Of a stretch of DNA of 64,000 nt, positions 84 through 31,855 are shown piece after piece (position 1 is the stretch's first letter; each line of letters opens with the position of its first letter). The stretch comes from Thermodesulfomicrobium sp. WS. GTDB taxonomy: Bacteria; Desulfobacterota; Desulfovibrionia; Desulfovibrionales; Desulfomicrobiaceae. A program made the position numbers and the translations under genes. Under the pieces are notes generated by a model, which saw nothing but the letters and a program-made list of their open reading frames with translations, was not told the origin of the DNA and searched no databases. Where the stretch lies: positions 1-64,000 of the forward strand of contig NZ_AP027130.1 of the NCBI RefSeq assembly GCF_027925145.1, in the 5' to 3' direction.

Positions 84-200
84 TCCTGGCAGCGACCTAC
101 TTTCCCACGGGAAGGCCCGCAGTAGCATCGGCGCTGGAGGGTTTCACTGCCGAGTTCGGAATGGGTTCGGGTGGGACACCTCCGCTATGACCGCCAGGAG
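84..200 (-). rRNA. rrf: 5S ribosomal RNA
   Basis: About 117 nt on the minus strand. The two ends are complementary (cctggcg / cgccagg) and form the 5S terminal helix, and the interior has the expected 5S blocks. It lies directly downstream of 23S. Ends are set by the terminal helix and may be off by 1-2 nt. Confidence 0.93.
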
Positions 201-227
201 AAAAATATAAGAATAATAGAGAGAAGA

Positions 228-3172
<2,945 letters not shown>

Positions 3173-3260
3173 CCTCTATTCTTCTGTCAATGAACCACAA
3201 GCTTTCCGCTCATGTCCCCTAGCGATACCTCGCTCGAGGACCCAAGGGCAAACCTTGTTG

Positions 3261-3336
3261 TGGTGGAGGTGAACAGGTTCGAACTGATGACCTCCTGCGT
3301 GCAAGGCAGGCGCTCTCCCAGCTGAGCTACACCCCC
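3261..3336 (-). tRNA. tRNA-Ala (anticodon TGC)
   Basis: A 76-nt tRNA with encoded CCA. The 7-bp acceptor stem pairs GGGGGUG with CACCUCC and includes the G3-U70 pair that marks alanine tRNAs. The anticodon is TGC and the T-loop GTTCGAAC is present. It sits in the 16S-23S spacer, the usual place for tRNA-Ala in this type of operon. Confidence 0.96.
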
Positions 3337-3339
3337 ACT

Positions 3340-3416
3340 TGGTGGGCCTGGGAAGACTTGAACTTCCGACCTCACGCTTATCAGGCGTGCGCTCTGACCA
3401 CCTGAGCTACAAGCCC
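3340..3416 (-). tRNA. tRNA-Ile (anticodon GAT)
   Basis: A 77-nt tRNA with encoded CCA. The acceptor stem pairs GGGCUUG with CAGGCCC, the anticodon is GAT and the T-arm is standard. Only 3 nt separate it from tRNA-Ala, a very tight Ile-Ala spacer pair. Confidence 0.96.
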
Positions 3417-3469
3417 CCACCGCAAGGACAACAACCCTTGCAAGTAAATAGCGAGAAGAACTCTTCCGA

Positions 3470-5024
<1,555 letters not shown>

Positions 5025-20076: not shown

Positions 20077-20298
20077 GTCCGCCTCCTGCCGCGGTTGCTA
20101 CCCCCTTTGCGGCCAAAGGCCAAGATCGCGCCAACCGCCCCCTCCACATGCCCCACAACAAAGCGTCCTGCAGAACGCCAGGCAGAAAAATACATACAAC
20201 TATTTGTATTTTCATACTTTTATTTTTTTATCGATTATTGACCCAGGGTCACATTTTTCCTTGACACCTCCCCACCCCGGCGCATAGAGAGGCTTTCC
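20077..20298 (+). promoter_or_regulatory. Control region of aromatic supraoperon
   Basis: No gene is seen. 20190-20240 is strongly AT-rich. Two palindromes stand out: atacaa-ctat-ttgtat (20194-20209) and TGACCC-A-GGGTCA (20239-20251), both perfect. A plausible promoter is TTCATA (20211-20216), 16-bp spacer, GATTAT (20233-20238), which would start transcription inside the second palindrome, so that site could be an operator. A consensus TTGACA at 20261 is also present, but its only -10 partner would start transcription past the leader Shine-Dalgarno. Confidence 0.45.
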
Positions 20299-20388
20299 AT
20301 GAAGCGCGAAAACCTCCTCCAGAACCGCCGGTACTTTTTTTGGTACTTTTATGGAAACAGGGCCTGTGGTCTGGAGGGGCTGTCGTAG
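20299..20388 (+). CDS. Aromatic leader peptide (Phe/Tyr/Trp), 29 aa
   Basis: A 29-codon frame with GAGAGG 6 nt before the ATG. Codons 12-18 (20332-20352) read Tyr-Phe-Phe-Trp-Tyr-Phe-Tyr: seven aromatic codons in a row, covering all three products of the downstream pathway. The frame ends at TAG 20386-20388, just before an intrinsic terminator. This is the layout of a leader peptide whose translation is slowed by shortage of charged tRNA-Phe, tRNA-Tyr or tRNA-Trp. The protein is not expected to have a function of its own. Confidence 0.88.
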   Translation: MKRENLLQNRRYFFWYFYGNRACGLEGLS

Positions 20389-20447
20389 CGTTTACACATC
20401 ACGAACATCCACCGAAGGGCCGCAGGCGCAAAGCCGGCGGCCCTTCG
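20316..20447 (+). promoter_or_regulatory. Attenuator with alternative RNA folds (segments 1-4)
   Basis: Segment 1 (20316-20326) pairs with segment 2 (20368-20377): seven Watson-Crick pairs plus three more across a one-base bulge. Segment 2 (20362-20372) can instead pair with segment 3 (20417-20427): 11 pairs, three of them G-U. Segment 3 (20413-20423) can also pair with segment 4 (20437-20447) as the terminator. Folds 2:3 and 3:4 exclude each other. Stalling at the aromatic codons would mask segment 1, freeing 2 to pair with 3 and allow read-through; finishing at the stop codon would cover segment 2 and allow the terminator. Confidence 0.85.
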
Positions 20448-20455
20448 AGTTTTTC
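20413..20455 (+). terminator. Leader terminator (attenuator stem 3:4)
   Basis: A perfect 11-bp stem, cgaagggccgc (20413-20423) with gcggcccttcg (20437-20447), and a 13-nt loop, followed by a run of T at 20450-20454. It stands between the leader stop codon and the first structural gene, 39 nt before that gene's start. Confidence 0.88.
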
Positions 20456-20493: not shown

Positions 20494-21300
20494 ATGAACC
20501 TGGGAAAAAGCGTTCGTTTGGAACGGATCTTCAACCGCAACACCGGCAAGACCATCATCGTGCCCTTGGACCACGGCACCACCGTGGGCCCCATCGCCGG
20601 CCTGGTAGACATGCGGGACACCATCAACAAGGTGGCTGAAGGCGGAGCCAACGCCGTCCTCATGCACAAGGGCCTGCCCCGCTGTTCCCACCGCGGCAAG
20701 GGCCGGGACGTGGGGCTCATCATCCACCTGTCCGCCAGCACCACCCTCTCGCCCTTCCCCAATGCCAAGACCCTGGTGGCCACCGTGGAAGACGGCCTGC
20801 GCCTGGGGGCGGACGCCGTGTCCGTACACCTCAATCTTGGCGACGAGACCGAGCGCGACATGCTGCGGGACGTGGGCGAAGTGTCCTCCCGGGCCGAATC
20901 CTGGGGCATGCCGCTTCTGGCCATGGTCTACGCCCGCGGCCCCAAAGTGAAATCCGAATGGGACCCGGCTACGGTAGCGCACTGCGCCCGGGTGGCCGAG
21001 GAATTGGGCGCAGATGTCGTGAAAGTCCCGTACACCGGGGATCCGGAGAGCTTTTCCCGGGTCACGGAAGCCTGCTGCATCCCGGTAGTCATCGCCGGCG
21101 GCCCCAAGATGGGCTCGGTGCGCGAAATCCTCCAGACCGCCCACGACAGCCTCAAGGCCGGCGGTTCCGGGCTTTCCATGGGCCGCAACATCTTCCAGGC
21201 CGAAGACCCCACCCGCTTGGTGCAGGCCCTGCACGCCGTAGTGCACCTGGACTACGACGTGGACCAGGCCCTCGCCCTCATGCACACCCCCAGCGCCTAA
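20494..21300 (+). CDS. 2-amino-3,7-dideoxy-D-threo-hept-6-ulosonate (ADH) synthase
   Basis: 268 aa, a class I aldolase of the FbaB/DhnA fold. In the archaeal-type aromatic route this enzyme joins 6-deoxy-5-ketofructose phosphate with aspartate semialdehyde to give ADH, replacing DAHP synthase. PLDHGTT (about residue 24) is the conserved Asp/His active-site segment; the Schiff-base Lys is expected in [10 protein letters not shown] (about residue 174); AGGPKMGSV closes the phosphate site. AAGGAGGAGG precedes the ATG. Its place directly ahead of DHQ synthase II supports the call. Confidence 0.92.
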
Positions 21301-21310
21301 AGGACTCGCC

Positions 21311-22276
21311 ATGCGCATCTACTTCGCTGCCCTGCCGTTTTGCAAAGACGAGGTCACCCTCGCCCTGGAATCCGGGGTGGACGGCGTCATCACCGACGCC
21401 GAGCACGTGCCGGTGGTCCAATCCCTGGCCAAAGGGGCGGTCCTGGACGCCGCAGACCTCCTGTGGGTGACCCTTGCCTCCAAGGACGACGAAGAAACGG
21501 CCGTGACCCAGGCCCTTGCCGGCAAGACCGTGATCCTGCGCGCCGGCTTCGAGATCATCCCGGTGGAGAACATCCTCGCCCAAACCCGAGAGGTGCTGGC
21601 CGAAGTGGAAAACGCCGAGCGGGCGCGGGTGGCGGCCGGCATCTTGGAATGCGGGGTGGCGGGGGTTGTGGTGCGGCCGGAAGCCGCAGCCGAGCTCAAG
21701 ACCATCGTCACCGAGCTGCGCGAGCGCCTGGGACAGGAAACCTTGGTGGCAGCCACGATCACTGCCGTGGAGAACGCCGGCCTCGGGCACCGGGTGTGCG
21801 TGGACACCACCTCGCTCTTCACCACGGGCATGGGGCTTTTGGTGGGGAATTCCAGCGCCTTCACCTTTCTGGTGCATGCCGAGACCGAGGCCAACCCCTA
21901 CGTGGCGCCGCGGCCTTTTCGCATCAATGCCGGCGCGGTGCACAGCTACTGCGTCATGCCCGAAGACCGCACCCGCTACCTGGAAGAACTGCGGCCCGGC
22001 GACGCGCTGATGGTCGTCCGCGCCGACGGCCGCACCCAACGGGCCACCGTCGGCCGGGTGAAGACCGAAATCCGCCCGATGCTGCGCATCGACGCCGAGG
22101 CCAGCGGCCAGCGCGGGACCATCTTCCTGCAAAACGCCGAGACCATCCGCCTCACCCGGCCGGACGGCACCCCGGTGAGCGTGGTGCAGCTTAGCCCCGG
22201 CGACCAGGTACTCTGCCGCCTGGATGCAGCAGGCCGGCATTTCGGCATGCGTATCTCCGAGGACATCCGCGAATGA
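21311..22276 (+). CDS. 3-dehydroquinate synthase II
   Basis: 321 aa, the usual length for the archaeal-type (AroB') enzyme. It converts ADH to 3-dehydroquinate by NAD-dependent oxidative deamination and cyclisation, and is not related to normal AroB. Recognised by ESGVDGVITDAEHV near the N-terminus, ILECGVAGVVV, VCVDTTSLF and the NPYVAPRPFRINAGAVH block (about residue 195). It lies 10 nt after ADH synthase and overlaps pheA by 4 bp. With ADH synthase it provides the entry to the shikimate pathway. Confidence 0.93.
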   Translation: MRIYFAALPFCKDEVTLALESGVDGVITDAEHVPVVQSLAKGAVLDAADLLWVTLASKDDEETAVTQALAGKTVILRAGFEIIPVENILAQTREVLAEVENAERARVAAGILECGVAGVVVRPEAAAELKTIVTELRERLGQETLVAATITAVENAGLGHRVCVDTTSLFTTGMGLLVGNSSAFTFLVHAETEANPYVAPRPFRINAGAVHSYCVMPEDRTRYLEELRPGDALMVVRADGRTQRATVGRVKTEIRPMLRIDAEASGQRGTIFLQNAETIRLTRPDGTPVSVVQLSPGDQVLCRLDAAGRHFGMRISEDIRE

Positions 22277-23355
22277 ACACCGAATCTGCCCTGACCTTGG
22301 AAGAACTGCGCCAGCGCATCGACGCCGTGGACGAGGCCATCGTCGCCCTGCTCCACGAACGGGCGAGCCTCAGCCGCCAGGTGGGCCAGCGCAAGAAAGA
22401 CGGTGTCATCTTCCACCCGTTTCGGGAAAAGGAAGTCCTCGAGCGCCTGCTCTCTCTGCCCGGCGAGCACCTGCCCAAAGAGCATTTGCGCGCCATCTAC
22501 CGCGAGATCCTCTCCTCTTCCCGCAGTCTGCAAGCCCCGCAGACCGTGGCCTATCTCGGTCCCGAAGGGACCTTCTCCCACCGCGCCGCCCTGGAGTACT
22601 TCGGCCACAGCGCCGAACTCCTCCCCCAGCCATCACTGGAGGCGGTATTCCGGGCCGTTGCCACAGACACCTGCCGGCTGGGCATCGTGCCCCTGGAAAA
22701 TTCGCTCCACGGCTCGGTAGCCGAGACGCTGGACCTCTTCCTGCACCACGACACCCCCATCCTGGCCGAGGTCTTCTGCCGGGTTCGGCACGCCCTCCTG
22801 GGGCACCGCATGGAGACGGTGCGCCGGGTGCTCTCCCATCCCCAGGCCCTGGCCCAATGCGCCCAGTGGCTGCGCACCCACCTGCCCCACGCCCAGCTCA
22901 TGGCTGTGGAGAGCACCGCAGCCGCAGCCCGAGCCGTCCACGACGACCCCGAGGCAGCGGCCATCGGCCATCCCGGCTTGGCAGGCCCCACGCTCGCCGT
23001 GCTCGCCACGGACATCCAGGATCTGGCGGACAATTGGACCCGGTTCGCCATCATCGGCCGCGAACCCGGCACTGCAGCCCAGCGGGACAAGACCTCGCTG
23101 CTCCTCACCCTGCCCGACCGGCCAGGCGCCCTGGCCGCGGTGCTGCGCATCCTCGCCGAGGCCGGGCTCAACCTCGCCAAGCTGGAGTCACGGCCGCTGC
23201 GCGCGGAAAAATGGAAGTACATCTTCTTCATGGACGTCGAGTCGGATCTGGGCGCGGAAAAATATGCCCAGACCCTGCGCCAGGTGGCCGAATGTTGCCA
23301 TAGCCTGCGCGTGCTCGGAAGCTACCCTGCCGGCCCCCATCTTGACCCGTTGTGA
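22273..23355 (+). CDS. pheA: Bifunctional chorismate mutase / prephenate dehydratase
   Basis: 360 aa with three domains: AroQ-type chorismate mutase (about 5-90), prephenate dehydratase (about 95-275; YLGPEGTFSHRAAL and GIVPLENSLHG), and a C-terminal ACT regulatory domain (about 283-360; the phenylalanine-site motif ESRPLR is retained). It makes phenylpyruvate for Phe, and Phe feedback is expected through the ACT domain. The start overlaps the preceding stop by ATGA. Confidence 0.96.
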   Translation: MNTESALTLEELRQRIDAVDEAIVALLHERASLSRQVGQRKKDGVIFHPFREKEVLERLLSLPGEHLPKEHLRAIYREILSSSRSLQAPQTVAYLGPEGTFSHRAALEYFGHSAELLPQPSLEAVFRAVATDTCRLGIVPLENSLHGSVAETLDLFLHHDTPILAEVFCRVRHALLGHRMETVRRVLSHPQALAQCAQWLRTHLPHAQLMAVESTAAAARAVHDDPEAAAIGHPGLAGPTLAVLATDIQDLADNWTRFAIIGREPGTAAQRDKTSLLLTLPDRPGALAAVLRILAEAGLNLAKLESRPLRAEKWKYIFFMDVESDLGAEKYAQTLRQVAECCHSLRVLGSYPAGPHLDPL

Positions 23356-23362
23356 GCACCCC

Positions 23363-24685
23363 ATGATCACCATCCCTGCCCCGCCCTCCAAGTCCCAGAC
23401 CCACCGCGCCTTCATCCTGGCGGCCCTGGCCGCAGGCGTCTCGCGGGTGCTGCGGCCCCTGGAGAGCGATGACACCCAGCGTACCCGCGATTGCCTGACC
23501 GCCTTGGGCGCCCGCATCCACCCCATCGAGGGCGGCTACCGCGTGGAAGCCATCCCGCCCGTCCGGCCGGCCCATCCGGTGGAGCTCGCCGTGGGGGAGT
23601 CCGGCACCACCTGCCGCCTCATCACCGCGGTAGCCGCAGCCCTCCCCGGTACGTACCGGATCTCGGGTGCAGGGCGCATGCACCTGCGGCCCATCGCCCC
23701 CCTCACCGACGCCCTGGAACGCCTCGGCGTCGGCGTCCACTTCGAAGGCGCCCCGGGCTGCCCGCCCCTGCGCCTGACTTCGCGCGGGTTTCTCCAAAGC
23801 CACACCGCCCTCGATGTTGCCGAAAGCAGCCAATATCTCTCGGCCCTGCTTCTGGCCGCGCCGCTGAGCCCCCAAGGGCTTACCGTGGATATCACCAGCG
23901 CCGCCATTGCCTCCTGGCCCTACGCCCACCTCACCCTGGAGGCCATGGCCCAGGCTGGGGTCCCGGTCACCATCAGCCAGCGTCAGGGACACGGGTTCGC
24001 GCCGCTTTCGCCCGCAGCAGTCCCCCAAGCACCGGCACAAACCCTGCGCTTTTGCGTGCCCGCCGGCCACAGCTACCGCGCCGGGGATTTTCTCGTGGAA
24101 GGCGATTGGTCCAGCGCCTCGTATTTCCTCGCTGCCGGCATACTCGGGCAGGTACCGGTGGCGGTCACCGGGCTGCGTCCCCAATCCTTGCAGGCGGACC
24201 GGGCGCTTGTGGATATCCTCAATACCATGGGCGGCCGGGTGGAGGTGCGCGAAGATCGCGTCACGGCCTATCCCAGCCGCCTGCACGGTGCGGAGCTGTC
24301 CATGGGCGCGTGCCCGGACATCGTGCCCACCGTGGCCATGCTTGCGGCCGCCGCCCACGGCACGACCCGCATCCGCGACGCCGCGCATCTGCGCCTCAAG
24401 GAAAGCGACCGCATCGCCGCCGTGGTGGACGGACTTACCCGCCTGGGGGTTTGCGCGCAGCCAACACCCGACGGCATGATCATCCATGGGGGGATCCAGA
24501 ATACCTCCCCGGTGGAGCTGGCCACCTTCGGCGACCACCGCCTGGCCATGAGCCTCTGCCTGGCGGAGCTCTTGGGGGCGCGGCCCATGCTCGACACCCC
24601 TGGCTGCGTGGCCAAGTCCTTCCCCCACTTTTGGGAGCTGTGGGAAACGGTGCGCCGCGCCAATGCGGAGGAGCATCGTGCCTAG
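23363..24685 (+). CDS. aroA: 3-phosphoshikimate 1-carboxyvinyltransferase (EPSP synthase)
   Basis: 440 aa. Joins phosphoenolpyruvate to shikimate-3-phosphate to form EPSP, the step before chorismate. PPSKSQTHRAFILAALA (N-terminal Lys-Ser), ESGTTCRL and LRLKESDRI (about residue 344) are signature segments of the family. The ATG at 23363 follows the pheA stop by 7 nt; longer in-frame starts lie inside pheA. Its own 3' end overlaps tyrA by 8 bp. Confidence 0.95.
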   Translation: MITIPAPPSKSQTHRAFILAALAAGVSRVLRPLESDDTQRTRDCLTALGARIHPIEGGYRVEAIPPVRPAHPVELAVGESGTTCRLITAVAAALPGTYRISGAGRMHLRPIAPLTDALERLGVGVHFEGAPGCPPLRLTSRGFLQSHTALDVAESSQYLSALLLAAPLSPQGLTVDITSAAIASWPYAHLTLEAMAQAGVPVTISQRQGHGFAPLSPAAVPQAPAQTLRFCVPAGHSYRAGDFLVEGDWSSASYFLAAGILGQVPVAVTGLRPQSLQADRALVDILNTMGGRVEVREDRVTAYPSRLHGAELSMGACPDIVPTVAMLAAAAHGTTRIRDAAHLRLKESDRIAAVVDGLTRLGVCAQPTPDGMIIHGGIQNTSPVELATFGDHRLAMSLCLAELLGARPMLDTPGCVAKSFPHFWELWETVRRANAEEHRA

Positions 24686-25448
24686 ACGGACTTCCCTCGT
24701 GATCCTCGGCGCCCGCGGCCGCATGGGGCAAAGGCTCTCCCGGGACTTTGCCCAGGCCGGATTCTCCGTGGCCGGATTTGACCTCCCCTTGGACCGCGCG
24801 CGCCTGCATGCCGCCGTGGCCGCAGCCCGCTTCGTCGTCCTTGCCGTGCCCGTGGCTGCCGTGGCCGAGGCCACCGCCCTCGTGGCGCCGGCACTTTCCG
24901 AAGACACCATCCTCATGGACATCACCTCGGTGAAGGTCCTGCCCTTGCAGCAGATGCTCGGCGCCACCACCACCCCGGTGGTGGGGCTCCACCCGCTTTT
25001 TGGCCCCGACACCCAAGCGCCCCTGCGGGTGGCGGTGGTCCCCGGCCGGGGCGACGAGGCCGCCTGCGCAGCCGAAACGCTCCTCAAGGATGCCGGCTAC
25101 GCCCCGTTTCGTACCACGGCCAGCGCCCATGACCAGGCCATGGCCTACATCCAAGGGCTCAATTTTCTGACCACCGTGGCCTATCTCTGCGCCACGCCGG
25201 ACCTCGATCTCACGCCGTACCTCACCCCGTCTTTTGGCCGCCGCATGGAGGCTGCCGCCAAATTGGTGGGCGAGGACGCGGCCCTTTTTTCCACCTTGGT
25301 GGAGGCCAATCCCTTCTCCCTGGAGGCCGCGCGCCGCTTCCGCAGCTACCTCAACCTCACCGCCAGCGGAGACCTGGAACTGGCGACCCGCAAGGCCGAA
25401 GCCATGCTGTGGTGGTGGCGCACGACGACTTCCTCGGGAGGGCCGTAA
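24678..25448 (+). CDS. tyrA: Prephenate dehydrogenase with Trp-rich C-terminal tail
   Basis: 256 aa. Oxidatively decarboxylates prephenate to 4-hydroxyphenylpyruvate for Tyr. The N-terminal Rossmann motif is ILGARGRMG (about residue 9), and VGLHPLFGPD holds the catalytic His region. No ACT domain is present. GTG at 24678 is chosen because GGAGGAG lies 4 nt upstream; an ATG at 24663 is an alternative. The last codons read LWWWRTTTSSGGP and form the leader peptide of the attenuator ahead of trpE, so translation of tyrA's end probably doubles as a Trp sensor. Confidence 0.9.
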   Translation: MPRRTSLVILGARGRMGQRLSRDFAQAGFSVAGFDLPLDRARLHAAVAAARFVVLAVPVAAVAEATALVAPALSEDTILMDITSVKVLPLQQMLGATTTPVVGLHPLFGPDTQAPLRVAVVPGRGDEAACAAETLLKDAGYAPFRTTASAHDQAMAYIQGLNFLTTVAYLCATPDLDLTPYLTPSFGRRMEAAAKLVGEDAALFSTLVEANPFSLEAARRFRSYLNLTASGDLELATRKAEAMLWWWRTTTSSGGP

Positions 25449-25512: not shown

Positions 25513-25534
25513 CCCTTCAACCCTGGAGAATACC

Positions 25535-26956
25535 ATGCCGCATAACCCCCCGCCTCTGCGCCAACGCGGTGCGTGGCTGCCTGCCGACACCCAAACCCCC
25601 ATCTCGCTCTACCTCCACATGGTGCAGCGCAAGCCGGGCATCCTTCTCGAGAGTAGCGAAGTGGACGGGCGGCTCGGCCGCTACAGTCTCATTGCCTGGG
25701 ATTTTCGCCTGGTACTCACCTGTGCCCAGGGCCGGCTGGCGGTGCGCGTCAATGACCCGCTCCTGGGACCCCTGCGAGAGCTCCACGGCCTGCCTTTTGT
25801 GGAGGGTGTACGCGCCGCGCAAGCGGCCATCGCCATCCTGCCGCCCGAAGCAGGGCTGCCGGCCATGACCCGCTCGCTCATCGGCTATTTCGGCTACACC
25901 GCGGCAGGGCTTCTAGAACCCGCCGTGGCGGACATCCTGCCCCCACAGCAGGCCCAGGCCTGCCTCGTGCTGCCGGGCCGCCAGATCCTCTTCGACCATC
26001 TGCGGCACCGCTGCCTCACACTGGCCCTGGAGGAAGATCCCGTGCCTCCCATCTGTGGCCGCCCGCTCACCCCCGAGCCTGCGCGCCTGGGCCCGGTGAC
26101 CACCACCCCGGACCGCGAGCAATTCCTCGCCAGTGTCCGCCGCACCAAGGAGGCCATCCAGGCCGGTGAAGCCATCCAGGTGGTCCTCTCCACCCGCTTC
26201 TCGGCGCCGTTTTCCGGCTCGCCCTTCGAGGTCTACCGCTCCCTGCGCCGGGTCAACCCGTCGCCCTACACCTTCTACATGGCCCTATCCCCGGACTTCA
26301 CCCTGCTCGGGTCCTCGCCCGAACTCTTGGTGCGCTCCCAGAAAGGCCGCCTGGAGCTTCGGCCCATCGCCGGCACCCGGCCGCGCGGGGCCACGGTGAG
26401 CGAGGACGAAGCCTTGGCCCGGGAGCTTCTGGCCGACGAAAAAGAACGCGCCGAACACGTCATGCTGGTGGACCTGGGGCGCAACGACCTCGGACGCATC
26501 GCCGCCCCCGGATCAGTGCAGGTGGACGCCACCATGGAAGTGGAGCGCTTCTCCCACGTCATGCACCTCACCTCCTACCTCTCGGCCACCCTCAAGCCGA
26601 ACCTCACGGCCCTCGACGTCCTCGCCGCAGTGTTCCCCGCCGGCACCGTCTCCGGGGCACCGAAAATCCGGGCCATGCAGCTCATCCACGACGAAGAACC
26701 CCTGCCCCGGGGCCCCTACGCCGGATGTATCGGCTGGATGGGCCTGGGCGACGAAGCCGCAGACATGGATACCGGCATCACCATCCGCTCCCTGTGGGTG
26801 CAGGGCGGCCAGATCCATTGGCAGGCCGGAGCCGGTATCGTCTTCGACTCCGACCCCGAAAACGAATGGCAGGAATGCCACAACAAGGCCCGGGCCATCC
26901 TGACGGCCGTCAACGACACCGGAGGCAGCGATGTTTTTGCTGATCGACAACTTTGA
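25535..26956 (+). CDS. trpE: Anthranilate synthase component I
   Basis: 473 aa. Converts chorismate and ammonia (from TrpG) to anthranilate. The N-terminal LLESSEVDGRLGRYS (about residue 34) carries the LLES-type tryptophan feedback site. The chorismate-binding domain includes SSPELLV, IAGTRPRG, DLGRNDLGR, FPAGTVSGAPK and QAGAGIV. The ATG at 25535 is preceded by GGAG. It is the first gene after the trp attenuator and overlaps trpG by 26 bp. Confidence 0.96.
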   Translation: MPHNPPPLRQRGAWLPADTQTPISLYLHMVQRKPGILLESSEVDGRLGRYSLIAWDFRLVLTCAQGRLAVRVNDPLLGPLRELHGLPFVEGVRAAQAAIAILPPEAGLPAMTRSLIGYFGYTAAGLLEPAVADILPPQQAQACLVLPGRQILFDHLRHRCLTLALEEDPVPPICGRPLTPEPARLGPVTTTPDREQFLASVRRTKEAIQAGEAIQVVLSTRFSAPFSGSPFEVYRSLRRVNPSPYTFYMALSPDFTLLGSSPELLVRSQKGRLELRPIAGTRPRGATVSEDEALARELLADEKERAEHVMLVDLGRNDLGRIAAPGSVQVDATMEVERFSHVMHLTSYLSATLKPNLTALDVLAAVFPAGTVSGAPKIRAMQLIHDEEPLPRGPYAGCIGWMGLGDEAADMDTGITIRSLWVQGGQIHWQAGAGIVFDSDPENEWQECHNKARAILTAVNDTGGSDVFADRQL

Positions 26957-27503
26957 CTCGTTTACCTTCAACCTGGTGCAGGTCTTCCAAGGTTTGGGCG
27001 TCGAACCCTTGGTGCTGCGCAACACAGAAACGCAGCTCCTTGAGCTTGCCACAGATCCACGGCTGAGCGCCGTGGTGCTCTCCCCCGGTCCCAGCCACCC
27101 GGGCAACACGGGCCTGTGTCTCCGCTTTCTGGATCTGGTGCCCCAGCAGGTGCCCATCCTCGGGGTCTGCCTCGGGCACCAGACCCTGGCCCATCACGCC
27201 GGCGCCACCGTGGGCAGGGCCCGGCGCATCATGCACGGCAAGACTTCCCTCGTGACCCACGACGGCACCGGGCTCTTTGCGGGCCTGCCCAACCCCGTGG
27301 AAGTGGGCCGCTACCACTCCCTGGCCATCCTCGAGGACCAACCGCTCCCCTTTACCGTCACCGCCCGGGCCGATGACGGAGAAATCATGGGCATCGCCTT
27401 TGCCGACCGCCCCTGGGTGGGGGTCCAGTTCCATCCCGAATCCGTCCTCACCCCCCATGGCCCGAAACTTCTTGCCAACTTCCTTGCCATGATCCGGAGG
27501 TAA
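26931..27503 (+). CDS. trpG: Anthranilate synthase component II (glutamine amidotransferase)
   Basis: 190 aa class I glutamine amidotransferase that supplies ammonia to TrpE. IDNFDSFTFNLVQ opens the protein; the nucleophile Cys is in GVCLGHQ (about residue 79); the His-Glu pair is in GVQFHPESVLT (about residue 170). GGAGG lies 5 nt before the start, inside the trpE 3' end, so the two subunits are translationally coupled. Confidence 0.96.
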   Translation: MFLLIDNFDSFTFNLVQVFQGLGVEPLVLRNTETQLLELATDPRLSAVVLSPGPSHPGNTGLCLRFLDLVPQQVPILGVCLGHQTLAHHAGATVGRARRIMHGKTSLVTHDGTGLFAGLPNPVEVGRYHSLAILEDQPLPFTVTARADDGEIMGIAFADRPWVGVQFHPESVLTPHGPKLLANFLAMIRR

Positions 27504-27505
27504 CC

Positions 27506-28498
27506 ATGTCCATCGCCCCCATTCTCGAAACCCTGCTTGCCGGCCACGACCTGGACTTTGCCACCGCCTCGGCCGTGTTCGCCGATCTCTTGGACGGACG
27601 CCTGTCCGAAGGCCAGGCCGCGGCCCTGCTCATCGCCCTGCGCAGCAAAGGCGAATCCGCCACCGAGCTGGCCGCTGCCGCCACCGCCGCCTTGGCGCGC
27701 GCCCACCTCGTGGAGGGGCTTCCCTCCCCGCGCATGGATACCTGCGGCACCGGCGGCGACGGTCGTCAGAGTTTCAATTGCTCCACCGCCGTGGCCCTGT
27801 TTCTCGCCGACATGGGCTACACCATAGTGAAACACGGCAACCGGGCGGTATCCAGCTCCTGCGGCAGCGCCGACATCGTCGAGGCCCTGGGCCTTCCCAT
27901 GGCGCAGGATCCACATGAGGTCGCCGCCGCTGCCCGCACCGATCGCTTCGTGTTCCTCTTTGCCCCGCATTTCCATCCCGCCTTTGCCCGCATCGCCCCC
28001 TTGCGCCGCGCCCTCGGGGTGCGCACCCTTTTCAATCTCTTAGGACCACTCATCAACCCCGCACGGCCCACACACCAGATCCTGGGGGTCCCAGAAGAAC
28101 GTCTGGTCCCCATCATGAGCGCCGCCCTGGCCCAGATCGGCGTCCAGCACGCCGCCGTGGTGCACGGCGCCGGAGGCTTTGACGAACTGACCCCCTGCGG
28201 TCCCGGTCATGTGGCCTGGGTGCAGAACGGCGCCGTGCGGGAGGAAGTCATCCATCCAAAATCCCTGGGCTTTGAGTATTTTCCTCCCACAAGCCTCTCC
28301 TGCACAGGCAAAGAAGACGCCCTCGATCTCCAACGACGCGTGCTCACTGGCCAAGGTCCCGCACCATTGCAGGCCATGGTGGCCCTCAACTTGGGGCTTG
28401 CCCTGCATCTGCTCGAAGACCTGCCCCTCGCCGAAGCCATGGCCAAGGCCCGGACCAAGGTGTCTCAAGGGATCTTACGGGAGGTGCCCCATGCTTGA
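27506..28498 (+). CDS. trpD: Anthranilate phosphoribosyltransferase
   Basis: 330 aa. Transfers phosphoribose from PRPP to anthranilate. The PRPP-binding loop is DTCGTGGDG (about residue 78); KHGNRAVSSSCGSAD (about residue 109) and the NLLGPLINP segment are family signatures. It starts 2 nt after trpG and overlaps trpC by 8 bp. It is separate from trpG, unlike the fused form in enteric bacteria. Confidence 0.96.
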   Translation: MSIAPILETLLAGHDLDFATASAVFADLLDGRLSEGQAAALLIALRSKGESATELAAAATAALARAHLVEGLPSPRMDTCGTGGDGRQSFNCSTAVALFLADMGYTIVKHGNRAVSSSCGSADIVEALGLPMAQDPHEVAAAARTDRFVFLFAPHFHPAFARIAPLRRALGVRTLFNLLGPLINPARPTHQILGVPEERLVPIMSAALAQIGVQHAAVVHGAGGFDELTPCGPGHVAWVQNGAVREEVIHPKSLGFEYFPPTSLSCTGKEDALDLQRRVLTGQGPAPLQAMVALNLGLALHLLEDLPLAEAMAKARTKVSQGILREVPHA

Positions 28499-29267
28499 GC
28501 GCTTCCGTGCGGCCAAACAGGCGGAAATCGCTGCCCTGCATGCCGCCGAGGCCGCCGGCACCCTTGCCCCCCTCTGGACCGCAGCACGCCCCAGTCTTGC
28601 CGAAGCCATCGCCACGGCCCGCGCCACGGGACGCAGTGCCATCATCGCCGAATACAAGCGCGCCTCACCCAGCCAGGGCTGCATCCGCACGGACCTCACC
28701 GCCCGCGAGGTCTGCAGCCAGTACGCCGGCGCCGGGGCCTGCGCCCTCTCCATCCTCACGGAAGAGCGCTTCTTCCAGGGAAGCCTCGCCTTCCTCCACG
28801 ACGCCGCGCCCTTGGGGCTGCCCATGCTGCGCAAGGACTTCATCCTCGACCCCCTGCAGGTGCGCGCCACCGCCGCCACCCCGGCCAGCGCCGTGCTCCT
28901 CGTGACGCGCATGCTCTCGGACGCCGCCCTGGCGGCCTGCCTTGAGATTGCCCAAGAAACCGGGCTCGAGGCCGTGGTGGAGGTCTTCGACCACGCCGAC
29001 CTTCACCGGACGCTCGCGGCCCAGGCGCGCATCATCCAGGTCAACGCCCGGGATCTGGACACCCTGGCCGTGGACCTAGGTCGCAGCCGCGCCCTGGTGC
29101 GGGAAAAATCCCCGGGACAGATTTGGATCGCCGCCAGCGGCATCACCTGCCGGGAAGACGTGCTGCGCCTGGAGGATGCGGGTTTCGACGCCGCCCTGGT
29201 GGGCACGAGTCTCATGCGCGCCCCTGACCCTGGGGCGGCCCTGCGCCAACTGCTGGGGGAGCCATGA
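28491..29267 (+). CDS. trpC: Indole-3-glycerol phosphate synthase
   Basis: 258 aa TIM-barrel enzyme. [13 protein letters not shown] (about residue 48) carries the catalytic Lys, LRKDFILD the next Lys, VNARDLDTL the Asn segment, and [10 protein letters not shown] ends the phosphate site. The ATG at 28491 overlaps the trpD stop; longer in-frame extensions fall within trpD. Not fused to trpF. Confidence 0.95.
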
Positions 29268-29872
29268 TCGTCAAAGTCTGTGGACTTGCCCGCGAGGAAG
29301 ATGTGCGCCTGTGCCAGACACTTGGGGTGGACATGGTGGGATTTATCTTCCATCCCCAAAGCCCGCGGCAGGTGGACCCGGCCTGGGTGGGGAGCATTGC
29401 CACCTCCTGCCGCAAGGTCGGGGTGTTCACGGTGCAGGATACCGCCACCATCGCCCGCATGGCGGCCGAGGCGCGGCTCGATATGCTCCAGCTCCATGGC
29501 CCATACCCGCCTGCGAGTGGAGACGCCCTCGGCCCGGAGCGCGTCATCGCCGTGCTCTGGCCGGAAGGCTTTTCCACGCCGCAGGCATTCCTCGGCGCGG
29601 CCGCCTCCTGGCAGGGGCATTGCCGCTTCCTGCTCCTCGATGCCGGGCGCTGCGGCGGTGGCCACGGCCGGGCCTTGCGGCTCCCCTGGACGCTCCCCGC
29701 CCTTCCTCTCCCCTGGATCCTGGCCGGCGGCCTTGGCCCGGAGACCATCGCCGCCGCGTGCGCCCTCCGCCCAGACGGGGTGGACCTCAACTCCGGGGTG
29801 GAGGCCCGTCCCGGCGTCAAGGACGCCGCCAAACTCCGTCAGACCCTCAACCACCTGCGAGGTTGTCCATGA
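29264..29872 (+). CDS. trpF: Phosphoribosylanthranilate isomerase
   Basis: 202 aa TIM-barrel isomerase. The N-terminal [12 protein letters not shown] carries the catalytic Cys; [12 protein letters not shown] follows; the second-half Asp is in [13 protein letters not shown] (about residue 127), and LAGGLGPE and DLNSGVE close the phosphate site. Overlaps both neighbours by ATGA. Confidence 0.95.
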
Positions 29873-31092
29873 TTCTTCCCCGTCATTTCGGCCCCTTTGG
29901 CGGCCGCTACGTGCCGGAGATGCTCATCCCGGCCCTGGACCAACTGGAAGCCGCCTTTGTGCAGGCGCACAGCGACCCGGCATTTCACGCCGAATTCCAG
30001 CGCTTGCTGACCTGCTACTGCGGCCGGCCCACGCCGCTCTACCCGGCGGAAAACCTCACCCGACACCTGGGCGGCTGCCAGGTGTTCCTGAAGCTGGAGA
30101 GCCTCAACCACACCGGCGCGCACAAGATCACCAACGCCCTCGGCCAAGCCCTGCTTGCCCGACGCATGGGCAAGACCCGGCTCATCGCCGAGACCGGGGC
30201 CGGCCAGCACGGCCTGGCCACAGCCACGGTGGCTGCCCGCTGCGGCATGCAGTGCACGGTGTTCATGGGCGAGGTGGACGTGGCCCGCCAATATCCCAAT
30301 GTCTTTGCCATGCGCCTTTTGGGGGCCGACGTCGTCCCCGTGGCCGACGGCACCCGCACCCTCAAGGACGCGGTCAACGCCGCCCTCAAGGATTGGATCC
30401 AGCATCTGGACTCCACCCACTACGTGCTGGGGTCCGCCCTGGGGCCGCATCCGTATCCCACCGTGGTGCGGGAGTTCCAATCGGTCATCGGTCGGGAGGT
30501 GGCGGCGCAACTGGAAACCCAGACCGGCCGGCGGCCAGGTCACCTGGTGGCCTGCGTGGGCGGCGGGTCCAACTCCATGGGGCTCTTCGCCCCCTTCCTT
30601 GGAGATCCCAGCGTGCGCCTCTACGGCGCCGAGGCCGGCGGCCGGGGCCCCAACCCCGGGGACCACGCAGCCCGGCTCCAGGGGCAGCCCAAGGCCGGCA
30701 TCGTCCAAGGGTACAAGAGCTACTTCCTCCAGGACGACCACGGCCAGGTGCAGGGCACCCACTCCATCTCCGCCGGGCTCGACTACGCCGGCATCGGGCC
30801 CGAGCTCGCCTGGCTCTTTGACCAGGGCCGGGTAGCCTTCACCCCCATCCCGGATGCCGAGGCCCTGGCCGCCTACCAGCTGCTGGCACGCCTCGAGGGC
30901 ATCATCCCGGCGCTGGAATCCTCCCACGCCGTGGCTCTGGCCATGCGTCTGGCCCCGAGCCTGCCCCCGGAGGACATCATGGTGGTCAATATCTCCGGCC
31001 GCGGCGACAAAGACCTCTTCATCACCGCCCGCGCCCTGGACGCCGAACGGTGGATTTCCTTTCTGCAAAGCGAGGTGGAACGTGACCAATAA
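29869..31092 (+). CDS. trpB: Tryptophan synthase beta chain
   Basis: 407 aa PLP enzyme that joins indole and serine. [15 protein letters not shown] holds the PLP Lys; [10 protein letters not shown] (about residue 106), the GGGSNSMG phosphate cradle (about residue 229) and [12 protein letters not shown] are all intact, as in the standard TrpB1 type. It starts in the trpF stop (ATGA) and its 3' end contains the trpA start. Confidence 0.97.
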
Positions 31093-31855
31093 ACTCGATG
31101 CCGTGCTGGCGGCGGCCCACGGGCATATCCAACTCATGACCCACGTGGTGGCCGGATACCCGGATCTGGACACCGGACTGCGCCTGGTGCGTGCCATGGC
31201 GGCCTGCGGGGTGCGCATCATCGAGATCCAAATCCCCTTCACCGACCCTTTGGCCGACGGCCCCACCATCATGGCCGCCAACCAGGCGGCCCTGGATGCA
31301 GGCATGACCCCGGAGGACGCCCTGGCCTGGGCAGGAGCGGTGGCGGCGGCCCTCCCCGAGGTGGCCGTGCTCGTCATGACGTATGCCAACGTGCCCTATG
31401 CCATGGGCATGGAGGAGTTTCTGCGGCGCTGCGCGGCGAGAAACATCCAGGGAGTCATCATCCCGGATTTACCGGTGGACGAGCCCGAAGGCGACTACGC
31501 CGCCATGGCGCGGCGCCTGGGCCTCCATCCCGTCATGGTGATCTCCCCGGACACCCCGGAAAAACGTCTCGAGCTCCTGCTCCCCCAGGCATCCGGGCTC
31601 CTCTACACCACCCTCAAGGTGGGCATCACCGGCGCAAGTTCCGACCTCTGCCCCGAAGCCCTCGCCTATCTCCAGAGCCTTGGCCGCCGCACGCACCTCC
31701 CCATTGCCGCGGGCTTCGGCATCAGTCAGCCCCGGCATGTGGCAGCCCTGGCGGGACGCGCCCAGGTGGCGGTGGTGGGAAGCCACGTGCTCAGCCTCCT
31801 GAACCACGGCGGCATCCCGGCTGTGGAGGCGTTTTTGCGCGCCTGCATGGCATGA
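31082..31855 (+). CDS. trpA: Tryptophan synthase alpha chain
   Basis: 257 aa TIM barrel. Cleaves indole-3-glycerol phosphate and passes indole to TrpB. The two catalytic acids are placed by [16 protein letters not shown] (Glu near residue 47, Asp near residue 58). GTG at 31082 is chosen: GAGG lies upstream, it overlaps trpB by 11 bp, and no ATG occurs before the first strand. It is the last gene of the aromatic supraoperon. Confidence 0.94.

Follow-up and report, generated by a model that had tools for sequence, protein, structure and literature searches.

A probable multivalent Phe/Tyr/Trp attenuator ahead of the aromatic supraoperon in Desulfovibrionales

The trp and phe leaders of enteric bacteria each sense mainly one amino acid. 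In Escherichia coli and Salmonella the trp, pheA and his leaders have a common plan: a short open reading frame containing the regulatory codons, a set of alternative helices (1:2, 2:3 and 3:4) and a terminator before the first gene. Other enteric leaders, those of ilvGMEDA and thrABC, show that one leader can read several amino acids (multivalent attenuation). At the first step of the aromatic pathway, E. coli employs separate DAHP-synthase isozymes (AroF, AroG and AroH) that respond to different aromatic amino acids. The element described here has the plan of the E. coli and Salmonella leaders, but appears to read three amino acids where those read mainly one, precedes a 12-gene supraoperon that follows the ADH/DHQ-synthase-II route, and unlike them is probably carried on a leaderless mRNA. 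From the ilvGMEDA and thrABC leaders, which read branched-chain amino acids or Thr/Ile, it differs in its amino acids (Phe, Tyr and Trp), in the genes that follow and in phylum.

Three further loci are comparable. The aroF gene of Corynebacterium glutamicum has a predicted leader with Phe-Tyr-Phe (PMC4046766): like the element here it mixes aromatic residues and precedes the gene for the pathway's first enzyme, but it has no Trp and belongs to another phylum, another operon and another first-step enzyme. In Sinorhizobium meliloti the 5′ end of the trpL RNA coincides with the leader ATG (PMC7298713), a start that was shown there and that we infer here; that leader is a Trp leader before trpE(G) only. 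Finally, a putative attenuator was listed in 2005 before the aroA'-aroB'-pheA-aroF-tyrA-trp supraoperon of D. vulgaris (PMC1173090, Table 7). The entry is a terminator-database prediction without a leader peptide, and the word 'leader' is absent from the paper (PMC1173090); it is almost certainly the orthologue of the element described here. A 2004 regulatory reconstruction of delta-proteobacteria contains nothing on an aromatic leader (PMC545781). In a sequence-only reading of the locus, a mixed leader was not known to have been described for operons of this type. The aroF Phe-Tyr-Phe leader and the D. vulgaris attenuator are thus precedents in part; a leader reading Phe, Tyr and Trp was not found described in the literature searched, which mostly excluded subscription journals, so that an earlier account is possible. 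What appears to be new is the multivalent Phe+Tyr+Trp form of classical attenuation.

The window, the 64,000-nucleotide stretch analysed, comes from a 2.36 Mb single-contig genome of the Desulfovibrionales whose closest named relative is an uncultured Desulfomicrobiaceae MAG. It also carries a complete rRNA operon (16S, two tRNAs, 23S, 5S) at 84-5023 on the minus strand. The operon genes and leader elements described next lie on the plus strand. ADH synthase (aroA', 20494-21300) heads a series of 12 aromatic genes: its product matches the Pfam DeoC/LacD aldolase family, and its identity comes from context and from PMC1173090. There follow, by Pfam, 3-dehydroquinate synthase II (aroB', 21311-22276; DHQS, E=3.5e-98), pheA (chorismate mutase - prephenate dehydratase - ACT, 22273-23355), aroA (EPSP synthase, 23360-24685), tyrA (prephenate dehydrogenase, 24663-25448) and trpE, trpG, trpD, trpC, trpF, trpB and trpA (25532-31855; the assignment of trpC and trpA uses only gene position and homology).

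The leader frame MKRENLLQNRRYFFWYFYGNRACGLEGLS occupies 20299-20388 (29 codons plus TAG), has orthologues in relatives and ends 105 nt before ADH synthase. Codons 12-18 (20332-20352; TAC TTT TTT TGG TAC TTT TAT) encode YFFWYFY, exactly as the sequence-only reading had it, and this is the sole run of seven or more F/Y/W residues in the six frames of the 64 kb. End-product codons are thus clustered in a short leader ORF, as in classical attenuators.

Downstream of the stop codon the strong terminator that had been noted is indeed present: hairpin 3:4 at 20413-20447 followed by a U5 tract at 20450-20454. Strand 2, the 5′ arm of the antiterminator (20362-20371), also encodes a conserved ACG of the peptide; strand 3 (20417-20427) is common to antiterminator and terminator. 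The 2:3 helix had been placed correctly at 20362-20372/20417-20427 (here 20362-20371 with 20418-20427). The 1:2 helix also exists, although the earlier placement (20316-20326/20368-20377) is about 2 nt off: its core pairs strand 1 (20314-20323) with 20370-20379. Helices 1:2 and 3:4 each exclude 2:3. The folded leader region has a z-score of -4.66, with none of 200 shuffles equally stable.

Strands 2 and 3 covary. Across a structure alignment of 64 distinct leaders, 96.9% of cells in 2:3 are paired, with 23 two-sided changes (6.1 in shuffles), and sliding the partner by 1-3 columns lowers pairing to 36-43%. For 3:4 the corresponding values are 92.3% and 36 two-sided changes (7.4 in shuffles). 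Against strand 2, column 105 of strand 3 reads UA in 39 leaders, CG in 12, UG in 10 and AU in 2, and yet in 47 of the 64 leaders it is a mismatch in the terminator. That it follows strand 2 despite this mismatch shows selection on the antiterminator itself. For 1:2 the test was weaker than covariation: in 65 of 79 loci, strand 1 paired better with its own strand 2 than with one swapped in from another locus. The region before the first gene thus holds a terminator, a covarying antiterminator and a competing 1:2 hairpin.

ADH synthase orthologues were gathered from whole genomes of relatives and from named genomes, and their upstream regions were examined for any that lack the frame or the helices. 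In Desulfovibrionales and a few neighbours, an aromatic leader was present wherever a full supraoperon could be examined together with the sequence before it, and the helices covary, in line with what the sequence-only reading led one to expect. The frames, with clustered aromatic codons, lie at about -260 to -100 relative to ADH synthase; examples are SLYFFWYFYFSRACGLRG (Desulfomicrobium group), FYFWFWFSHARGQGG (Solidesulfovibrio) and QYWYYWFSRACGLGEVC (Humidesulfovibrio group). In three seeming exceptions (L147, L107 and L073) the leader is located farther upstream or in another frame, and the upstream region of L091 stops at a contig end. Because the most aromatic short upstream frame was chosen as the leader, the choice is biased toward finding leaders; promoter spacing and helices, unlike the picking of leaders itself, are independent of it. 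Single-gene ADH paralogs at L032-L035, L112, L115, L117 and L146 have no leader before them, and not all copies are therefore under attenuation.

Terminators competing with antiterminators are also the layout of other RNA sensors, and the element could in principle be a T-box, a riboswitch or a TRAP site beside a fortuitous ORF. We consider this the least probable of the readings weighed here: no Rfam family (T-box, riboswitch, Trp leader, Phe leader or others) reached its gathering score in the window leader or in 12 leader loci, permissive thresholds returned nothing relevant, and the conserved aromatic frame tracks operon content (below). The lone Rfam match among the tested loci is a cobalamin riboswitch elsewhere in L052. 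A covariance-model search across the phylum returned mostly look-alike terminators below about 35 bits, and few of its matches outside Desulfovibrionales had an aromatic frame.

A sigma-70 consensus scan of the window found no promoter above its cut-off; comparison of relatives brought out a TTGACA at fixed distance. In 75 of 79 representatives this element, with at most one mismatch, lies 35-40 nt (mode 37) 5′ of the ATG that opens the leader frame. In the window it is at 20261-20266, 38 nt before the ATG, and is followed after a 17-nt spacer by a probable -10 element (ATAGAG, 20284-20289), weak here and assigned by its position relative to TTGACA. Such normal spacing puts the predicted transcript start at, or within a few nucleotides of, the ATG (about 2 nt in the window), so that the leader mRNA is probably leaderless or nearly so. 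One earlier claim is not supported here, a functional Shine-Dalgarno being unlikely. The 'good Shine-Dalgarno' AGAGAGG (20286-20292) sits at the -10 region of the conserved promoter and, given a start beside the ATG, would be part of that promoter; moreover, a good Shine-Dalgarno is absent from most leaders of relatives, whose mean match to AGGAGG is 3.0 of 6 compared to 5.35 for ADH genes.

A near-leaderless mRNA ending in a strong terminator is also the layout of S. meliloti trpL (PMC7298713), where peTrpL and rnTrpL act in trans, and the same could hold here, the peptide or the terminated small RNA having a function in addition to attenuation. We regard this as improbable, since the peptide outside its core is conserved no further than strand 2 requires.

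A palindrome, TGACCCAGGGTCA, is found at 20239-20251, directly 5′ of the -35 element. TGACC-N3-GGTCA is kept there in most Desulfomicrobium-group relatives and is absent from L014 and from L015/L016, the latter two from genomes without trpE and trpD. It is a candidate operator; against an operator reading, the genome holds just 4 copies (the reversed control occurs at 2 places), and of the three copies beyond this one at least two are intragenic.

What the leader peptides conserve is a class of residue. Among 50 dereplicated supraoperon leaders (relatedness among which still enters the counts) five consecutive zone codons are aromatic in 96-98%, and the flanking codon on each side in 78-86%; over six control codons the range is 86-98%. 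Their order is free: the 50 leaders contain 38 different cores. Nevertheless, Phe, Tyr and Trp are all present in the eight-codon zone of 48 of the 50 (39.7 in column shuffles, P=0.0002), and Trp is present in every one (42.3 in column shuffles). All three kinds of codon are thus selectively kept in the zone. Conservation of composition without conservation of sequence points to reading of codons. It argues against a TnaC-like arrest peptide, whose own sequence, inside the exit tunnel, would detect a free amino acid, a reading to which the short and strongly hydrophobic nature of the peptide lends some appeal. RNA pairing accounts for the one conserved piece of sequence, the ACG tail, which strand 2 encodes; we hold an arrest peptide to be very improbable.

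The leaders also differ from the genes in synonymous codon use. Across all loci TTT:TTC is 449:133 and TAT:TAC 222:102 in leaders, while ADH synthase genes prefer TTC (409:143 over TTT) and TAC (285:154 over TAT). The bias of the leaders may slow decoding or help the region to stay free of pairing.

The position of the aromatic codons was examined with a fold model that assumes a ribosome footprint of 30 nt and treats the nascent RNA as it stands ahead of the synthesis of strand 4. With any of codons 12-17 of the window leader in the A site, predicted 2:3 formation in the nascent RNA is 0.80-1.00; with codons 18-29 there, no 2:3 is predicted. The modelled control zone holds Phe (codons 13, 14 and 17), Tyr (12 and 16) and Trp (15). 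Under the assumed footprint, therefore, the control codons are positioned so that a stalled ribosome would free strand 2. In most of 79 loci the modelled zone finishes at or near the end of the aromatic run, and the Trp codons fall outside it in 3 of 25 trp-containing leaders. Stalls at the non-aromatic codons 3-11 also antiterminate in the model, and when a ribosome pauses at the stop codon, 7 nt of strand 2 stay uncovered and 2:3 stands at 0.68 before strand 4 appears. Once strand 4 is present the terminator wins at equilibrium wherever the ribosome sits: antitermination must then be kinetic. Kinetic antitermination is usual for attenuators of the classical kind.

Leader residues follow the genes that the leaders precede. 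With the control zone taken as 10-52 nt 5′ of the invariant G of strand 2 (the 10-nt cut being chosen post hoc), all 49 operons that contain trp genes have a Trp codon and none of the 27 that lack them does (Fisher P = 3.5e-21, relatedness ignored). In 5 of 10 leaders of ADH+pheA operons a Trp codon lies nearer to strand 2 than the 10-nt cut, or within strand 2, a position at which stalling would keep the antiterminator from forming. In the ADH synthase phylogeny trp genes and Trp codon each change 8 times; the independent contrasts (8) are all concordant, although the 3 of 8 on well-supported branches are too few for significance. Among the cases without Trp are two close relatives of the window genome (G011 and G013): trpE and trpD were not found, only a second-type trpB remains, and in their leaders (NSYVFVYDYY and PRVFAYGYY) Tyr replaces the Trp of their sisters. 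Both are probable Trp auxotrophs or indole users.

In a further five genomes (G004, G030, G034, G038 and G111) the trp genes are located elsewhere, yet the ADH operon retains its Trp codon; the leader thus tracks which end products rely on the operon, rather than strict gene neighbourhood. The separate trp operons of the two that were checked (G004 and G030) have Trp-rich leaders of their own, AWLWWWLFS and KGWWWRIQL. These are accompanied by terminators and lie about 137-224 nt (L127, G030: MNVFSNTISNSFKGWWWRIQLRGGDVRA) and about 160-316 nt (L126, G004: ...TAWLWWWLFSRVRG...) 5′ of the trpE match.

These data bear on whether the leader, as a real attenuator, senses just one or two amino acids, mostly Phe and Tyr, with the Trp codon incidental. 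With TGG occurring just once, the window leader has fewer codons for Trp than for Phe or Tyr, and sensitivity to Trp may for this reason be weak. Opposed to this are the presence of Trp in all 50 dereplicated leaders in spite of its shifting position, its loss along with the trp genes, and the placement of the window Trp codon inside the modelled control zone. We think this reading unlikely, if somewhat less so than an action in trans, and favour joint reading of all three amino acids.

Single-gene ADH paralogs extend the series. Their leaders may carry Phe alone (FFFFSFF is one example), both Phe and Tyr (FFGFYYF) or Tyr alone (QYYYSYG), and are mostly found in genomes that also have a supraoperon leader with Phe, Tyr and Trp. 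A third class without Trp in the control zone precedes ADH+pheA operons, mostly in MAGs labelled Desulfobacterales or Desulfobacteraceae. By the evidence of sequence comparison, leader codons are retuned across lineages and paralogs to match the genes controlled. Like E. coli, these bacteria have separate first-step isozymes, whose specificity in this case seems to reside in the leader codons of the ADH paralogs. It is likely that a single scaffold on a leaderless message serves as a programmable sensor, codon swaps addressing it to Phe+Tyr+Trp, Phe+Tyr, Phe or Tyr, and that leader codons, in place of different regulators, give isozymes and operons their specialisation.

Similar frames were seen at about position 1500 of several further loci. 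In other families of the phylum, probable DAHP synthase genes (L184, G224; L186, G202) are preceded by leaders that carry F/Y/W (SRFYFSGWFFFGGFF) or Trp alone (NNCWWWQVW), and trpE (L178, G284; L180, G267) has Trp leaders (KAWANWRW; INLWWRAWSF) with a similar GGCCGCAGGC terminator. Phe/Tyr-rich leaders with terminators (KYYFYYRR; TFFSYFVFSGF) occur at the same position in L185 and L197, where the gene 3′ of the leader resembles a hydrolase of the metallo-beta-lactamase fold; an aromatic attenuator would not be expected to control such a gene. At L181, again at about position 1500, a Leu-rich frame (LLTLLPGLALLRLL) is found 5′ of a 2-isopropylmalate-synthase-like gene.

Together the above analyses make it very probable that the element works by classical, ribosome-mediated attenuation of transcription through a multivalent Phe/Tyr/Trp leader. 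Computational analysis establishes that the aromatic frame is conserved, how the promoter is spaced, that 2:3 and 3:4 covary, where the control zone lies and that leader residues correlate with operon content; translation, stalling, the start site and the cellular response to shortage are the portions of the model that we infer. Transcription would begin at or beside the leader AUG, and a ribosome would initiate on the leaderless or near-leaderless message. Should charged tRNA-Phe, tRNA-Tyr or tRNA-Trp be scarce, the ribosome would stall within codons 12-17 and cover the loop or 5′ arm of 1:2, allowing strand 2 to pair with strand 3; the terminator would then be blocked and RNA polymerase would enter all twelve genes. 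With all three tRNAs charged the ribosome would pass codon 21 onto strand 2, or leave so that 1:2 re-forms: in either case 3:4 would form and transcription would stop. The arrangement would amount to an OR gate in which any single shortage suffices, sensitivity to each amino acid being set by its number of codons, and relatives would retune the same element through the aromatic codons that occupy the control zone. Such joint reading, proposed from the sequence alone, is supported by retention of all three residues despite their free order, by the stall-position fold model, and by the disappearance of the Trp codon in the absence of trp genes.

In these sulfate-reducing bacteria the whole aromatic pathway is probably switched on when any of Phe, Tyr or Trp runs short, which provides a simple account of aromatic-pathway control across a bacterial order with an archaeal-type start to the pathway. 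The natural series of three-, two- and one-amino-acid leaders, including a lineage that lost its trp genes together with the Trp codon, makes the codon-to-operon logic of attenuation directly testable, and leader residues are usable to predict what a paralogous first-step enzyme responds to.
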